Positions 20,585-26,728 of a stretch of DNA of 39,128 nt are shown in pieces (positions within the stretch are counted from its first letter, which is position 1; each line of letters opens with the position of its first letter). The translations under genes and the position numbers were made by a program. The notes beneath the pieces were generated by a model. That model ran no database searches and had not been told where the DNA came from. It worked only from the letters and a program-made list of their open reading frames with translations. The stretch lies in assembly GCA_013154375.1 (NCBI GenBank), contig JAADCR010000026.1:1-39128 (forward strand), given 5' to 3'. This stretch comes from Aquificota bacterium. Its GTDB lineage: Bacteria; Aquificota; Aquificia; Aquificales; Aquificaceae.

Positions 20585-20590
20585 ATTTTA
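20585..20590 (-). promoter_or_regulatory. TAAAAT -10 element for the COG0523 gene, overlapping the upstream stop codon
   Basis: On the minus strand TAAAAT begins with the TAA stop codon of the FolM-like gene and lies 6 bases before the ATG of the COG0523 gene. This repeats the arrangement seen in front of hslO. Confidence 0.45.
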
Positions 20591-21298
20591 AGCGCCCGGG
20601 CCCGCGAGGTGGCGCCCCCCGTCGAGCCGCACCAGCTCGCCCGTCGTGCCCTCCGTCTCGAGCAGAAAGAGCGTAAGCTTAACTACCTCTTTTAAGGGCA
20701 CGGGCCGGCCTATAGGCGTGCGCCTTATCACGCGCTCCCACTTCTCCTCGTCGTACTGCTCGGCCTTTAAGACGGGCCCTAAGGCTATACCGTTAACGAG
20801 CACTGAGGGAGCGAGCTCTTTGGCGAGCACTTTCACCGCCCCGTGGAGGGCCGCCTTGGCCACGAAGTAGGGCGCGTAGCCGCGGTAAGGGCAGTCGACC
20901 GCCCAGTCGCCGAAGGCCACCACCCTACCTTTAACCGCCCCTTCGTTCTTACTCATAAGCTTAGCCGCCTCGACGGTTATAAAAAAGAACGAGCGCGTTA
21001 CGGCGTTAAAGTAGCCCTCCAGCATCTCGGGCGTTACGCGCTCGAGGGGCAGCTCTTCGTACGGCGAGGCGAGGTGGACGAACGCGTCGAGCCGGCCGAA
21101 GCGCTCCTTTACGGCCTCTACGGCCTTAACGCCCGTCTCTTTAGACAGGTCGGCCTTTACGGCCAGCACCTTCCCTTCGAGCTCTTTAGGCAGCGAAGAG
21201 CGGTAGACGGCAGCCACGCGGTAGCCGCGCCTTAGAAGCTCGAGGGCCAAGGCCTTTCCTATGCGGCGGACGCCGGTAAGAAGTACCACCTTTCCCAT
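20588..21298 (-). CDS. Short-chain dehydrogenase, pteridine reductase (FolM)-like
   Basis: A 236-residue SDR. The NADPH-binding motif is TGVRRIG (8-14), with arginines as in pteridine and dihydromonapterin reductases. The active site has FGDWA, where Asp replaces the usual catalytic Ser, followed by Tyr and Lys in YFVAKAAL. An Asp-Tyr-Lys arrangement is a feature of PTR1/FolM enzymes, so reduction of dihydropterins or dihydrofolate is the best guess; other SDR activities remain possible. ATG 21298 is chosen because the Rossmann motif follows directly and TATAAG lies 7 bases upstream. The frame is open 56 codons further, across the divergent modE-like gene, without similarity. Confidence 0.75.
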   Translation of the reverse strand: MGKVVLLTGVRRIGKALALELLRRGYRVAAVYRSSLPKELEGKVLAVKADLSKETGVKAVEAVKERFGRLDAFVHLASPYEELPLERVTPEMLEGYFNAVTRSFFFITVEAAKLMSKNEGAVKGRVVAFGDWAVDCPYRGYAPYFVAKAALHGAVKVLAKELAPSVLVNGIALGPVLKAEQYDEEKWERVIRRTPIGRPVPLKEVVKLTLFLLETEGTTGELVRLDGGRHLAGPGA

Positions 21299-21313
21299 GT
21301 TAAAACTTATACT
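21299..21313. promoter_or_regulatory. 15-base divergent promoter between the FolM-like and ModE-like genes
   Basis: Only 15 bases (GTTAAAACTTATACT) separate the ATG of the reductase from the GTG of the regulator. On the minus strand TATAAG is followed by 7 bases and ATG. On the plus strand TAAAAC is followed by 7 bases and GTG. This is the tightest divergent gap in the window, and both transcripts would be leaderless. Confidence 0.45.
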
Positions 21314-21658
21314 GTGAAGCTCCGCTTTAAGGTCTGGTTCGAGAAGGAAGGCGAGCCGGTTATGACGGAGCTGAAGCTCCGTCTCCTTAAGGGCATAAAA
21401 GAAGAGGGCTCGCTGGCGAGAAGCGCCGCGCGTCTGGGCATATCGTACAAAAAAGCCCTCGGCCACCTGAGGGCCATGGAGGAGAGGCTCGGCTACAGGG
21501 TCGTAGAGCGTAAAAGGGGTGCCGGGGCCCGGCTGACGGAGGAAGGGGAGAGGCTGCTGAGGCGCTACGAGCGCGTGCTTAAGGCCTTCTCCGAGCTTGC
21601 CGAGCGGTTAGACGAGGAGGAGGGCGTTGGCGGCGGTGGCGGCGTAGCGGCGCGGTAG
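21314..21658 (+). CDS. ModE N-terminal-domain-like transcription regulator
   Basis: A 114-residue protein with a winged helix-turn-helix of the ModE/LysR type: LKLRLLKGIKEEGSLARSAARLGISYKKALGHLRAMEERLG (about 20-60), with the ModE-like ISYK recognition helix, then VVERKRGAGARLTEEGERLL as the wing. The molybdate-binding C-terminal domains of full ModE are absent, so the signal it senses is unknown. Such short forms often accompany molybdenum or tungsten genes, but none is seen here. The start is GTG 21314, where the family sequence begins. The last 51 bases overlap the HgdB-like gene and encode a Gly-rich tail that may be dispensable. Confidence 0.8.
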   Translation: MKLRFKVWFEKEGEPVMTELKLRLLKGIKEEGSLARSAARLGISYKKALGHLRAMEERLGYRVVERKRGAGARLTEEGERLLRRYERVLKAFSELAERLDEEEGVGGGGGVAAR

Positions 21659-22966
21659 GCTAAGGTCGGCCCGCGCGAGCCTCTTACTCGCTTCTTCTAT
21701 CCGGCGGTCCGTTAGGTTTAGCTCGCGCTTGGCCCGCTCGTACTCCTCGCGCGCAAGCTCTTTAGCCTCGTAGAGCTTCATAAGGACTCTACTCTTGGCG
21801 TTTGCCTCCGCGTCGCCCGTCGTCTCGACCGAGACGAAGAGGCTTCCCTTTAGATCTTCCACGACCTTAGCCTGCACGCCGTCGCTCTGCGTAGAGGGCA
21901 TGCAGCCGAAGGGCTTTACCGAGACGACGAGGTGGGCGAGCTTGTGCTTAACGGCGTAAACGTGCTTACCCACCTCCATGTGCCCCTCCCCGCCGGCTAT
22001 GCGCGGGTCGTAGTAAGGCTCGGCGTAACGGGCGAGCTTTTTCTGGCTTTTTAGCGGGTCGGGCTTACCGCCTAAGGCCCTCCGGTACAGCTCGTAGAGC
22101 GACCTGAGGTAAAGACCGAAGGCCTTAAGCGCTAAAAGCTCTTTTACCGCCTTCAGGCGGTCTTTAAAGGCTCTCTCTTTAACCGAGAGCTGACGGACGA
22201 AGACGAGGTAGTCTATCCAAGTGGCCACGGGCTCGACGACGGGCTCGGCCCCTTCCTCTATAAGCCACGCGGCGAGACGGTAGTTCCCGTCTCCTTCCGT
22301 CGTCTGGGCGAAAAACTCGCCCGTTATCTTTACCTTGGGCTTAGGTGTAAAGTAGTTGACCCTTACGGCCGAGAGCTCGCGCTTTACGCGTCTTAGGGCC
22401 TTAAGTACGGACGAGCCGCGCTCGAGCGCCTCGGCGAGCAGGCCCAGCGCCCGCTCCTTCCAGAGGTCCGTAGCGCCCTCTTTAAGCTCGTAGGGCTTTA
22501 CCTTGTAGTAGAGGTCGTTTATCAGGTCGCCTAAAAAGACTGCCTTTATAACGCTTAAGAAGAAGCGGCGGTCGAACCTCAGGGGCCCTTCCTGCTCGTC
22601 GGTTAGAGCACGCGCCTGCTCGAAGGTCACGACCTTAAAGTCCGGGAAGCCCGCCTCTTTTAAGGCTCTCCTGTACTCGGCTTCGTACATGCCGAAGCGG
22701 CACGGCCCGCACGAGCCGGCGGTGACGAAGACGAACTCTCTCTCCACCTCCAGACCTTCCTCGCGCTTTTTAAAGAGGAACTTTAAAAGGTTACCTACGG
22801 TGTAGTAGGTGGGGTTACACTGGCCTTTGTTGCAGAACTCTTTACCTATCCGGAGCGCCTCGTTGTCGGGCGTGGGAAGCGGCAGGGCCTCGTAGCCGAG
22901 GGGTTTAACCGCGGCACTTATGAGCGTCTCGTGGGCTTGCGTAAGGCCGCCGAAGAGCACCTTCAC
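21608..22966 (-). CDS. HgdB/COG3581-like iron-sulfur protein (split activase system, third part)
   Basis: A 452-residue protein of the 2-hydroxyacyl-CoA dehydratase beta-subunit-like superfamily (COG3581 type). Likely cluster ligands are Cys45 and Cys50 in EFCNKGQCNP, Cys86 and Cys89 in SCGPCRFG, and Cys355 in KPFGCMPST. GEGHMEVGKH and TTEGDGNYRLAAWL are further superfamily-like segments. In many anaerobes this region is the C-terminal part of a very large fused protein; here it is a separate gene overlapping the previous one by 4 bases. The substrate is unknown. True dehydratase genes are accompanied by CoA-transferase genes, which are absent here. Confidence 0.78.
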   Translation of the reverse strand: MKVLFGGLTQAHETLISAAVKPLGYEALPLPTPDNEALRIGKEFCNKGQCNPTYYTVGNLLKFLFKKREEGLEVEREFVFVTAGSCGPCRFGMYEAEYRRALKEAGFPDFKVVTFEQARALTDEQEGPLRFDRRFFLSVIKAVFLGDLINDLYYKVKPYELKEGATDLWKERALGLLAEALERGSSVLKALRRVKRELSAVRVNYFTPKPKVKITGEFFAQTTEGDGNYRLAAWLIEEGAEPVVEPVATWIDYLVFVRQLSVKERAFKDRLKAVKELLALKAFGLYLRSLYELYRRALGGKPDPLKSQKKLARYAEPYYDPRIAGGEGHMEVGKHVYAVKHKLAHLVVSVKPFGCMPSTQSDGVQAKVVEDLKGSLFVSVETTGDAEANAKSRVLMKLYEAKELAREEYERAKRELNLTDRRIEEASKRLARADLSLPRRYAATAANALLLV

Positions 22967-24357
22967 CTTAACACCTCCTCTTCGTAGCGCTTTAGAAAGT
23001 AGTCGAGCGTCTCGACGCGGAGCTTAATAGAGCCGGCGGGGCGGTTCTCGTCCAGCTCGTGGAAGGTAAAGAAGGGTCTTCCGGTAGAGGCGAGGAGCTC
23101 TTCTATAAGGCCGTAGATGGGCGCGTCGTGCCCGCAGCGGAACGACGAGAGCTCGACGGCACTTAAGTAAGGAACTTTAGAGACGAAGCGGGCGGCCCAG
23201 ACTTTCAGAGAGGAGTTCTCGCTGTAGCACTTGGGCCAGACGTCGGTAATCTCGAGCGGGCTCTTTATCCGGCCGCTCTTTAGCTCTTCTTTAAACAGCT
23301 CGTTCAGGAGCGCCTCGTCGCGCGGGAGCGCGTCTACGGGCAGAACCGCGTAGCCCCGGTCGTTTATCTCGTCGGGTATCCCGTGGTTAAGCCCCGGGTC
23401 GTTGTGGTACGGCCGGGCCAGCAGCACCACCCCCACGCGCTTTTCCCGTTTTAGCTTCTCTAGCAGCTCCGCCCCCCGACGGCGGAGCTTCTCTTTGTAA
23501 GTTTTTAAAGCCCCGAGCGCCTGCTTAAGCGCCAGCTCGTGCTCTTTACGCGTAACGCCGAAAAGCGGGCCCACCGCTTTAAAGAGCTGTCTCGAGAGCA
23601 GCTCCTCGTCCTCGAAGTCTAAAACCGGGTTTAGGTACTTAACGCCCCGCTCGGCAAACTCGTCGCGCTCTTTCGTAAAGGCCGCCTTTACCACCTCGGG
23701 CGTGGCCGTCACCGTAGGGCAGGCCCAGTGGCCCTCCGCGTTCTCCACCTCTTTAGGCAGCGTCCTTACGCAAGGGAAAAAGACGACGCTTACGCGTTTC
23801 TCGTAGATGAGCTCGTGAACGTGGGCCAAGGCCACCTTTGACGGGTAGCACGGGTCTATAGAGCCGCGCTTAGCACCCTTCCGGTAGAGCTCCTCGCTCG
23901 TGTAGCTCGAGAAGACGACCTTCTTAACGCCCAAGGCCTCGAAGTAGGTACGGAAGAAGGGAGCCAGCGAGTAGGCGTTAAGTACGCGCGGCACGCCCAC
24001 CACCGCCTCGCGGAGCGTCCGGCGTTTTTTCCGGTTTAAAAGCGCCGACAGACCTCCTTGTAGCACCACCTCGGGCCGGTACGAGCTAAAGAGCAGCTCG
24101 TTAGCCTCTCTCACGAGGTTAGGAAACTCGTCCTTAAGCCGGCTCTTTTTCCTAAGCAGAGCTCTAAGCTCTTCTTTCGTCTCGACGGTGCCTTTCTCGC
24201 ACGGGGCTACTATAAAGCGCTTTTTGCTGCCTTTTACCGAGAGGTCTATAAAGGTGCGGACGCAGTAGTTGCTGCAGAAGCTGCAGCGCGTCTCTTCGCC
24301 GCGCTTCGTCTCGTAGGTAAGCGCGTCTACCGCGTCGAAGCCTATAAAGCTGCTCAC
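22963..24357 (-). CDS. DUF2229/COG3580-like iron-sulfur protein (split activase system, second part)
   Basis: A 464-residue protein matching the middle section of the large fused CoA-activase-type proteins. The N-terminal cysteine group CSFCSNYC (Cys25, 28, 32) with Cys53 in APCEKG resembles the family's CxxCxNxC start. GVPRVLNAYSLAPFF, SIDPCYPSKVALAHV (Cys170), FFPCVRTL (Cys196), ARPYHNDPGLNHGIP and SFRCGHDAP (Cys408) are all characteristic. The many conserved cysteines suggest one or more Fe-S clusters. It overlaps both partners by 4 bases, so the three subunits are translationally coupled and probably form one complex. The catalysed reaction is unknown. Confidence 0.8.
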   Translation of the reverse strand: MSSFIGFDAVDALTYETKRGEETRCSFCSNYCVRTFIDLSVKGSKKRFIVAPCEKGTVETKEELRALLRKKSRLKDEFPNLVREANELLFSSYRPEVVLQGGLSALLNRKKRRTLREAVVGVPRVLNAYSLAPFFRTYFEALGVKKVVFSSYTSEELYRKGAKRGSIDPCYPSKVALAHVHELIYEKRVSVVFFPCVRTLPKEVENAEGHWACPTVTATPEVVKAAFTKERDEFAERGVKYLNPVLDFEDEELLSRQLFKAVGPLFGVTRKEHELALKQALGALKTYKEKLRRRGAELLEKLKREKRVGVVLLARPYHNDPGLNHGIPDEINDRGYAVLPVDALPRDEALLNELFKEELKSGRIKSPLEITDVWPKCYSENSSLKVWAARFVSKVPYLSAVELSSFRCGHDAPIYGLIEELLASTGRPFFTFHELDENRPAGSIKLRVETLDYFLKRYEEEVLR

Positions 24358-26168
24358 GCCCTAACCCCTCCCGCCACGCGCATGGCCTCCACGGCGGCAC
24401 CGTAGGCGCCCGCCACGCTCCCGAAAGGGTGGACGAAGACCTTAGCGTCGGGAACTTTACTCTTTATGTAGTCGAGCTGGGCCTTTACGACGGCGAGGTT
24501 GCGGTGCGTCCCGCCTTGAAGGACGAAGACCTTTCCTAGTCTCGCCAGATTGGGCTCTTGGGCCACGTAGAGCCAGACGTTGAGCGGGAGCACCTTAGCA
24601 AGCCCGGCCATAATCTCCTCCGCGGTCCAGCCCAGACGCTGGAAGTTAACCACGTCGGCCTCTAAAAAGACGGCGCAGCCGAAGTTAAACGACGGGCAGT
24701 AGCGGGCCTTAAAGGCCGCCTCCGCGTACTCTTCTACGCGGTAGCCGAAGCGCTCGGCCGTGGCCTGTAGGTAGTAGCCGTTACCCGCGGAGCACTGCGT
24801 GTTTAGCTTAAAGTCCTTTACCTTACCTTCTCTTATCACAATTATCTTTATGTCTTGGCCGCCCACGTCGCAGACGACCTCCGCGTCGGGGAAGAACTTA
24901 AGCGCCCCCAGCGCGTGGGCCACCGTCTCGACCACCGCCGTCTCGCCGCCGAAGGCCTCGAGCAGCAGCTCCTTGGCGTAGCCCGTGTAGCCCGCACCTT
25001 CTACCTGTGGCTCTATGCCGAGCTCTTTAGCCTTCCGCTCGAGCTCCTTTAGCACGAGCGCGGCGTCCTTTAGCGGGTTGCCCGCCGAGAGGCGGTAGGC
25101 GCTTACCAGCAGCCTCCCCTCCTCGTCGAGAAGCACGGCCTTGGTTGAGGTCGAGCCGCCGTCGAGGCCTACAAATACGGGCAGCCTGCCCGAGACGGGG
25201 GGCGGGTTGTAGGGCTCGGGGGCGTAGGTTTTTAGAAACTCTTTAAGCTCCTCTTCGGTCCTCCAGAGGGCCGGCTGGCCGCTCTCGCGCTTTATCTTCT
25301 CCCGCTCCTCTAAAAAGCGGTAAAGCGGCGTAAGGTCTTCTACGACGAACCTCCCGGGCTCTTCCAGCTCGGCCGAGAAGGCCGCCCCGAGGGCCACGAA
25401 GTACAGCGCGTCCTCGGGCAGCAGCACGGGACCCTCGGTAACGCCGCGCTCGCGCCAGAGCTCCTTAAGCCTGTACTCCCACGCCTGACGGAGGCCTAAA
25501 AAGTAGGCGTTCGGGCCGCCTAAAAGGAGCACGGGCGGGCGGGGCGTGTAGCCGCGCGTAAGCACCGTAAGGTTCTGCAGCACGACCGCGTCGAAGAGGG
25601 AGATAAGCAGCTCCTCCTCGGGCACGCCCTTTTTCTGGAGCGAGTTTACGTCCGTCTCGGCAAAGACGCCGCACTTACCCGCCACCGGGTGGACGCGTGC
25701 AGGGTCGTAAGCTACGCGTGCGGCCTCCTCGGGCTTGAGGCCCAGCTTGGCCAGTATCCGGTCTATCGTCGCGCCCGTGCCGCCGGCACACTTGTCGTTC
25801 ATAGAGGCGAACTTTCTTACGCGGCCGTTCTCGCGCATCCAGAGGACGAACTTCGCGTCTTGGCCGCCGAGCTCGAACAGGCTACCGGCCTCCGGGTAGA
25901 GCCGCTCGGCCGCCAGCGTAACGGCGTTCACCTCTTGGACGAACTTACCTTTAAGCAGCTCCGCTACGGTCTTGCCGCCGCTCCCGGCGCAGAAGAGCGT
26001 AAACCTGTCTACCGACAGGTCTTTTTTTATCTGCTCTAAAAACTCTATAACCTTCTCCGTCTGACGGGCGTAGTGCCGCTCGTAGCGCTTCCAGAGCACC
26101 CTCCCTTTCTCGTCGAGCACGACCGCCTTTACGGTGGTCGAGCCCGCGTCGAGCCCTACCCTAATCAC
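24354..26168 (-). CDS. Tandem-domain ATP-dependent activase (BcrAD/BadFG, HgdC-like)
   Basis: A 604-residue protein with two ASKHA-fold activase domains. Domain 1 (about 1-265) has DAGSTTVKAV (7-16) as the phosphate loop and Cys127 and Cys166 in KCAGGTGAT and GKCGVFAETDV. Domain 2 (about 330-595) repeats this with DGGSTSTKAV (336-345), Cys459 in QCSAGNGYY and Cys498 in FGCAVFLEADV. In HgdC such cysteines from two subunits hold a bridging [4Fe-4S] cluster that passes electrons to a partner upon ATP hydrolysis; here one chain could provide both halves. It starts 8 bases inside tetR and is followed by its two putative electron-accepting partners. Confidence 0.88.
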   Translation of the reverse strand: MIRVGLDAGSTTVKAVVLDEKGRVLWKRYERHYARQTEKVIEFLEQIKKDLSVDRFTLFCAGSGGKTVAELLKGKFVQEVNAVTLAAERLYPEAGSLFELGGQDAKFVLWMRENGRVRKFASMNDKCAGGTGATIDRILAKLGLKPEEAARVAYDPARVHPVAGKCGVFAETDVNSLQKKGVPEEELLISLFDAVVLQNLTVLTRGYTPRPPVLLLGGPNAYFLGLRQAWEYRLKELWRERGVTEGPVLLPEDALYFVALGAAFSAELEEPGRFVVEDLTPLYRFLEEREKIKRESGQPALWRTEEELKEFLKTYAPEPYNPPPVSGRLPVFVGLDGGSTSTKAVLLDEEGRLLVSAYRLSAGNPLKDAALVLKELERKAKELGIEPQVEGAGYTGYAKELLLEAFGGETAVVETVAHALGALKFFPDAEVVCDVGGQDIKIIVIREGKVKDFKLNTQCSAGNGYYLQATAERFGYRVEEYAEAAFKARYCPSFNFGCAVFLEADVVNFQRLGWTAEEIMAGLAKVLPLNVWLYVAQEPNLARLGKVFVLQGGTHRNLAVVKAQLDYIKSKVPDAKVFVHPFGSVAGAYGAAVEAMRVAGGVRA

Positions 26169-26721
26169 GCCACAGACCTCCCACCGAGAAGCTAAGGAGT
26201 TTCTCCGACAGCTCCTTAGGGTCGCCGCCTTCTTCTATGAGCCCCGCCACGGTCTCCTTTACGGCACCCACGACGGCACGCGCCACCGCGTGTGGGTCGT
26301 GCTCTTTTAAAAGGCCCATCTTTATCCCCTTCTTCAGGCTATCTTCTGTAAGCTTTACGATGCTGTTTAGAAACTCGCGGACCGGGCCGCTGAGCTCGGG
26401 CTCGCAGGCTCTAAAGAGGACTATCCGCGCCAGCTCCTCGTTCTCAAGCGCGTAGCGGAGAATCCGCTCGAGGTTCTCCCTTACCTGCTCCTTTGGGTCC
26501 CGGCTAAGCTCGACGGGCTTTATAAGCTCGCGCAGCTCGCTTACGGTCTTTAGCAAGAGCTCTTTAAAGAGCTCCTCTTTGCCTTTAAAGTAGAGGTAGA
26601 AGGTGCCGCGCGCCACGCCCGCACGCTCTACGATGTGGCTTATCTGCGTGCGGTAGTAGCCGCGTCTAGAGAACTCCTCTTTAGCAGCCTTCAGTATCCT
26701 CTCGCGCGTACCGACTGACAC
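26161..26721 (-). CDS. TetR-family repressor of the activase operon
   Basis: A 186-residue TetR-type regulator. The N-terminal domain TRERILKAAKEEFSRRGY with the helix-turn-helix ISHIVERAGVARGTFYLYF (about 28-46) is typical, and the C-terminal all-helical domain is acyl-CoA/drug-sensor-like in size. The start is GTG 26721; no ATG fits. A perfect 7-2-7 inverted repeat covers the start codon and a TAATTA hexamer lies 7 bases before it, so the gene is probably autorepressed from a leaderless promoter. It is first in the operon and overlaps the activase gene by 8 bases, so its ligand is likely related to the activase substrate. That last step is inference. Confidence 0.85.
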   Translation of the reverse strand: MSVGTRERILKAAKEEFSRRGYYRTQISHIVERAGVARGTFYLYFKGKEELFKELLLKTVSELRELIKPVELSRDPKEQVRENLERILRYALENEELARIVLFRACEPELSGPVREFLNSIVKLTEDSLKKGIKMGLLKEHDPHAVARAVVGAVKETVAGLIEEGGDPKELSEKLLSFSVGGLWRD

Positions 26722-26728
26722 GTCAGTC
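26713..26728. promoter_or_regulatory. TetR operator candidate overlapping the tetR start codon
   Basis: GACTGAC-AC-GTCAGTC is a perfect inverted repeat of 7-bp arms with a 2-base spacer. It spans bases -7 to +9 of the tetR coding strand, directly downstream of the TAATTA hexamer at 26729-26734. Binding there would block transcription start. It is 50 bases upstream of the -35 of the divergent DUF5335 promoter, so it may not affect that gene. Confidence 0.65.

Follow-up and report, generated by a model that had tools for sequence, protein, structure and literature searches.

Probable glycerol ester reductase of the Ger/PlsA type, encoded as three subunits in a TetR-linked operon of an Aquifex relative

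The operon described here most probably codes for glycerol ester reductase (Ger, PlsA-type) in its Aquifex version, divided into three subunits under a local TetR regulator. The window, i.e. the whole stretch of 39,128 nucleotides that was analysed, belongs to a 1.19 Mb draft genome, and Aquifex MAGs are the nearest named relatives of the operon locus. Four genes, all with GTG as start codon, were called on the minus strand from 26721 down to 21608 in the order tetR, activase (ACT), DUF2229 protein and HgdB-like protein, with overlaps of 8, 4 and 4 bases between neighbouring genes. The open reading frames and Pfam thereby confirmed the layout of the original prediction. Its lower end at 21608 was also correct, but the tetR start lies at 26721, and the predicted upper end of 26728 corresponds only to the border of an operator-like palindrome. 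The features are as follows:

26161..26721, minus strand: TetR-family regulator, 186 aa, first gene of the operon (PF00440, E 8.8e-19)
24354..26168, minus strand: tandem activase ACT, 604 aa, two ASKHA/BcrAD_BadFG domains (PF01869, two stretches)
22963..24357, minus strand: DUF2229 protein, 464 aa, reductase half 1 (PF09989, E 9e-61)
24058..24357, minus strand: N-terminal Cys4 module of the DUF2229 protein, residues ~1-100 (Cys25, 28, 32, 53), from cysteine conservation
21608..22966, minus strand: HgdB-like protein, 452 aa, reductase half 2, predicted fold of the DCCP/BzdN/HadB type
26713..26728, no strand: palindrome GACTGACGTGTCAGTC spanning the tetR start codon, likely TetR operator; core ACTGACNNGTCAGT shared with relatives

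Searches of Pfam and NCBIfam gave no match for the HgdB-like protein. Since full-length homologues of each operon protein were found in the same genus (63-72% identity, gene order kept) and also spread over many phyla, the reading frames are not due to chance. In a complete Aquifex genome, which we take to be Aquifex aeolicus VF5, the order of the operon was identical at 64-71% identity. A ModE/LysR-type HTH gene on the plus strand (window 21314-21658) runs towards the operon and shares 51 bases with the final part of the HgdB-like gene; a relative occupies the same position in other Aquifex genomes (loci L034, which is that of the complete genome, L036 and L037/L062). The short-chain dehydrogenase ORF at window 20588-21466 (minus strand) is similar to pteridine reductases from about residue 57 onwards only, and its listed start is probably too early. 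Furthermore, a protein of ~99 aa (MFDHEKTMFEIYREGGYGRTYRVVYYTEL...) was observed near the operon in ten loci from several phyla, e.g. at L083:6008-6307.

The assignment to Ger/PlsA starts from fused homologues. In Listeria, Acetoanaerobium and Haliovirga, the order ACT, DUF2229, HgdB-like was found within one chain of 1446-1484 aa, and in Fusobacterium it was divided between two genes (985 + 404 aa). The succession of two BcrAD_BadFG domains, DUF2229 and HgdB-like is the same over the three genes of the operon, which bears out the prediction of a TetR-linked split form of the fused protein. The identity of the operon proteins to these homologues was 22-35%. The DUF2229 protein matched the Listeria protein with an E of 6e-33 over 95%, and compared to PlsA-type proteins ACT showed ~33% and the HgdB-like protein ~22% identity. 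We assign the homologues of all four genera to the PlsA family. Two of the records used are labelled 'plasmid' but are chromosomes by their size (Listeria NZ_CP030101.1, 2.9 Mb; Acetoanaerobium NZ_CP154629.1, 2.6 Mb).

In Clostridium perfringens, anaerobic plasmalogen synthesis was traced to PlsA/PlsR (PMC9702350; PMC12838417). As described in PMC9702350, PlsA orthologues exist in Listeria and Enterococcus, plasmalogens have been reported for Listeria, and a TetR/AcrR-like regulator lies directly upstream of pls in E. faecalis and other facultative anaerobes. Ger, known from Thermotoga maritima and Desulfatibacillum alkenivorans, is homologous to PlsA; its expression in E. coli gave alkyl glycerol ethers and, for the D. 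alkenivorans enzyme, diethers too (PMC11150832; PMC8788747; PMC13274423). For both PlsA/PlsR and Ger, a reduction of membrane-lipid esters to vinyl or alkyl ethers is described (PMC11150832; PMC13274423). The fused protein had been called one of unknown function and its reaction possibly new; with experimentally tested ether-lipid enzymes as homologues, the function has been assigned since 2021-2022 and is probably not new.

Ger (T. maritima Tmari_0479, D. alkenivorans SHJ90043) can be set beside the operon by description. Like the operon, it comprises two activase domains and two reductase halves; the PF09989 family was found in the genome of T. maritima, an organism that makes alkyl glycerol ethers. 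D. alkenivorans Ger is one chain of ~159 kDa (PMC11150832), whereas the operon encodes three chains. PlsA/PlsR consists of two genes in C. perfringens and of one gene in Enterococcus, Listeria and Lactococcus, compared to three genes here. It has the order ACT-ACT-DUF2229-HgdB-like, all 14 invariant cysteines described below and, in facultative anaerobes, the upstream TetR in common with the operon, but differs in the low identity, in a deep split in the tree and in the saturated ether expected as product of the operon. In the tree, which covers the Aquifex-type subfamily and four PlsA-type proteins, long branches lie between the two.

The lipids of Aquifex are consistent with such an enzyme. 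The membranes of Aquifex are rich in dialkyl glycerol ethers. Such diethers were reported for cultures of Aquifex aeolicus and A. pyrophilus, and glycerol monoethers are given as further Aquificales markers (PMC4339782). The A. aeolicus-type complete genome comprises a single PF09989 gene and a single HgdB-like gene, which both belong to this type of operon. It also encodes the ester-lipid acyltransferase PlsY and therefore makes ester precursors. An archaeal-type ether route was rejected for this genome, in which only partial cross-matches to PF01884 and no full-length GGGPS were found. The reductase domain PF07993 (ElbD type) gave only generic matches in every genome, including all 14 controls, so that alternative routes to the ether lipids of Aquifex were ruled out in part only. 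PF09989 was present in 4 of these 14 control genomes, T. maritima and Lactococcus lactis among them; L. cremoris, a close relative of the latter, has a tested PlsA.

The deep split from the PlsA-type sequences could also point to a related ATP-driven reductase of the superfamily, which acts on another substrate (acyl-CoA, acyl-ACP or a small molecule) instead of membrane-lipid esters. The occurrence of the subfamily in many phyla, soil bacteria included, would be compatible with this, and the recurrent neighbours of the operon across the loci are TetR and small local genes only, with no lipid pathway gene. Nonetheless, we regard another substrate as rather unlikely, since the PlsA-type proteins share the domain order and the invariant cysteines, and in Aquifex, which produces diethers (PMC4339782), no further PF09989/HgdB-like set was found in the genome. 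The literature searched gave no characterised family member with another function.

It appears improbable that the enzyme is a PlsA producing vinyl ethers (plasmalogens) instead of a Ger producing saturated alkyl ethers. PlsA and Ger are held to be indistinguishable by sequence in the passages concerned of PMC13274423 and PMC11868695. In PMC13274423, an architecture with two activation domains ('BB') is associated with alkyl as opposed to vinyl ethers. In our sample this does not discriminate, because four Pls-type proteins tested also showed two activase stretches each, and the domain number was rejected as a criterion, with two stretches in every protein tested. The lipids of Aquificales cultures, however, are glycerol mono- and diethers, and plasmalogens go unmentioned in the sections of PMC4339782 that deal with them.

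The DUF2229 protein and the HgdB-like protein co-occurred in 62 of 136 Aquificota genomes, even where unlinked, while DUF2229 alone was found in 2 and the HgdB-like protein alone in 7 genomes, most of them incomplete (Fisher p 5e-28 over the 136 genomes, kinship ignored). One genome (G122, locus L054, G122:C1:104000-120000) contained a further DUF2229-like match, weak (E 3.5e-5) and located far away from the main one, which is perhaps a distant paralogue.

Across the Aquificota the system is divided in different ways. In Aquifex, tetR, ACT, DUF2229 and HgdB-like lie together in one operon. A second Aquificaceae genus keeps tetR, ACT and DUF2229 together, with the HgdB-like gene elsewhere. Other Aquificaceae have the HgdB-like gene followed by an ACT with a C-terminal Cys4 module (~720 aa) and then a DUF2229 core (~390 aa); two genomes with this arrangement are presumably Thermocrinis. 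In another genus, with a complete member that we take to be Hydrogenobacter thermophilus, HgdB-like and ACT are found at one site and the DUF2229 core at another. The Desulfurobacteriaceae comprise a fused ACT-DUF2229 (~1060 aa), in several cases after tetR, and a separate HgdB-like gene elsewhere. In many other phyla, the HgdB-like gene adjoins a fused ACT-DUF2229; this pair occurs frequently in Acidobacteria, Ignavibacteria, Planctomycetota and others (L065-L140), among them soil lineages that are not considered to be strictly anaerobic. At one locus (L038:4171-8828, genome G108), the DUF2229 gene runs opposite to its flanking genes ACT and HgdB-like, which looks like an inversion in situ and reflects either a real inversion or an assembly error.

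The three-gene form and the other splits across Aquificota are new, as are the two cut positions that isolate the Cys4 module. The split had been expected to define the domain borders naturally. It does provide borders, but relatives of the same phylum are cut at a different point, which separates the Cys4 module from the DUF2229 core. Depending on the lineage, the module is located on the activase or on the reductase, and therefore it would fit a relay between the two.

The four candidate cluster cysteines predicted for ACT (Cys127, 166, 459, 498) were invariant in 91 of 91 homologues in the family alignment, and so were the paired glycines of the nucleotide motifs in both halves. In the DUF2229 protein, Cys25, 28, 32, 53, 170, 213 and 408 were invariant in all 98 homologues; the first four form the Cys4 module (4/4 in 98/98) and the last three belong to the core. 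For the HgdB-like protein, Cys50, 89 and 355 were invariant (56/56). Altogether, this results in 14 invariant cysteines (4 + 7 + 3), PlsA-type rows included. Both partners had been described as rich in cysteines, which holds true for the DUF2229 protein (9, of which 7 invariant), but the HgdB-like protein has just 5 (3 invariant). Neither nucleotide loops nor cluster cysteines were lost in the family alignments, and ATP-driven low-potential electron transfer stands as the family precedent.

With its ASKHA motifs and two cluster cysteines per domain, ACT corresponds to the CoA-enzyme activases of the HgdC type. Its second half aligned with HgdC (1hux), HadI (4eht) and MbdPQ, its first half with the DCCP reductase. 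For both reductase halves, sequence searches against solved structures found no relative, and the likeness became visible by fold comparison only. The single-chain AlphaFold2 model of the HgdB-like protein (pLDDT 86.6) matched DCCP, 3-methylbenzoyl-CoA reductase and HadB as well as the BzdN type, and that of the DUF2229 protein (pLDDT 90.7) matched HadB (3o3m_B), DCCP and BzdNO, with Foldseek probabilities up to 1.00 and TM-scores of ~0.4. A profile-profile comparison of the DUF2229 half with the HgdB-like half gave no significant match.

BzdO binds a catalytic [4Fe-4S] cluster with three cysteines (95, 128, 380), whereas BzdN binds a double-cubane cluster with six (PMC11971306). A double-cubane cluster, which the original prediction had considered for the partner, is very unlikely because six cysteines are needed in one chain, and the HgdB-like protein has 5 in total with 3 invariant and the DUF2229 core 3 invariant ones. 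Based on these three invariant cysteines per half and the precedent of BzdO, one [4Fe-4S] cluster on three cysteines is expected in each reductase half. The operon resembles DCCP and its reductase (7yyl, 6eno) in the activase and reductase folds, but it is without the double-cubane cysteine set, carries a tandem instead of a single activase and has an extra Cys4 module. With HgdC/HadI + HgdAB/HadBC and BcrABCD/BzdNOPQ/MbdNOPQ it shares the ASKHA activase, the bridging [4Fe-4S] cysteines and two reductase halves; it differs from HgdAB/HadBC and the benzoyl-CoA reductases by the extra Cys4 module, by not belonging to PF06050 and by having no CoA-substrate pathway genes. A classical HgdB/BCR/DCCP partner elsewhere in the genome was ruled out, since no PF06050 protein was found in the source genome and four relatives, including the complete Aquifex genome (E. 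coli and M. jannaschii controls positive). Although the activase family and the reductase fold are shared, a genuine system of the 2-hydroxyacyl-CoA dehydratase, benzoyl-CoA reductase or double-cubane protein kind is hardly plausible, given this absence of PF06050, the insufficient number of cysteines for a double-cubane cluster and the lack of CoA-substrate genes near the operon.

For a Ger-type enzyme, the three subunits would form a complex, which is supported by the natural fusions in the same order. The tandem activase would act as a pseudo-dimer holding one [4Fe-4S] cluster on Cys127, 166, 459 and 498, and would accept an electron from a ferredoxin-like donor. Driven by ATP, the electron would be passed on at very low potential via the N-terminal Cys4 cluster of the DUF2229 protein, a putative [4Fe-4S] relay, and would then reach the two three-cysteine [4Fe-4S] clusters of the DUF2229 core and the HgdB-like protein. 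At these clusters, a completed phospholipid may be reduced stepwise at its acyl ester with loss of water, giving a vinyl ether and subsequently the saturated alkyl ether of Aquifex membranes.

Concerning the regulation, TetR relatives adjoin the operon in 13 loci. The palindrome core ACTGACNNGTCAGT was found at the tetR start in the window as well as in loci of Aquificaceae and Desulfurobacteriaceae, extending up to CTGAACTGACNNGTCAGTTCAG in the latter. Among 30 genomes searched, 12 contained the palindrome, once each, and in 11 of these 12 it was located at the tetR of this system (tetR-ger); in the twelfth (G024) the copy lies elsewhere. The A. aeolicus copy is imperfect. This palindrome at tetR, present once per genome where found, is new, and its pattern makes it the likely candidate for a local, self-regulating TetR operator. 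TetR would bind the palindrome that covers the start codon of its own gene and switch the operon, presumably in response to a ligand. Since no operator copy was found at the unlinked HgdB-like genes of Desulfurobacteriaceae and other relatives, TetR seems to act locally.

It is conceivable, although we consider it unlikely, that the Aquifex/Acidobacteria subfamily represents a separate second class of ATP-driven ester reductase. Such a class would have its own substrate or position preference, e.g. for dialkyl instead of sn-1 monoalkyl ethers, and a free Cys4 relay module moving between subunits by lineage.

Bacterial ether lipids are relevant to the 'lipid divide' that separates bacteria from archaea and to biomarker studies, and the diethers of Aquificales are classic hot-spring biomarkers. 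In the searched portions of the Ger/PlsA literature, no enzyme was named for these diethers, and the texts searched made no mention of an Aquificota Ger. Fused Ger expressed in E. coli was found mostly in inclusion bodies (PMC11150832). The three-piece form would help the study of this hard-to-handle ether-lipid enzyme, and the three-subunit version of a thermophile could permit reconstitution subunit by subunit, assignment of the clusters and a first structure. Furthermore, the cysteine analysis yields a testable electron path over four clusters without a double-cubane cluster.
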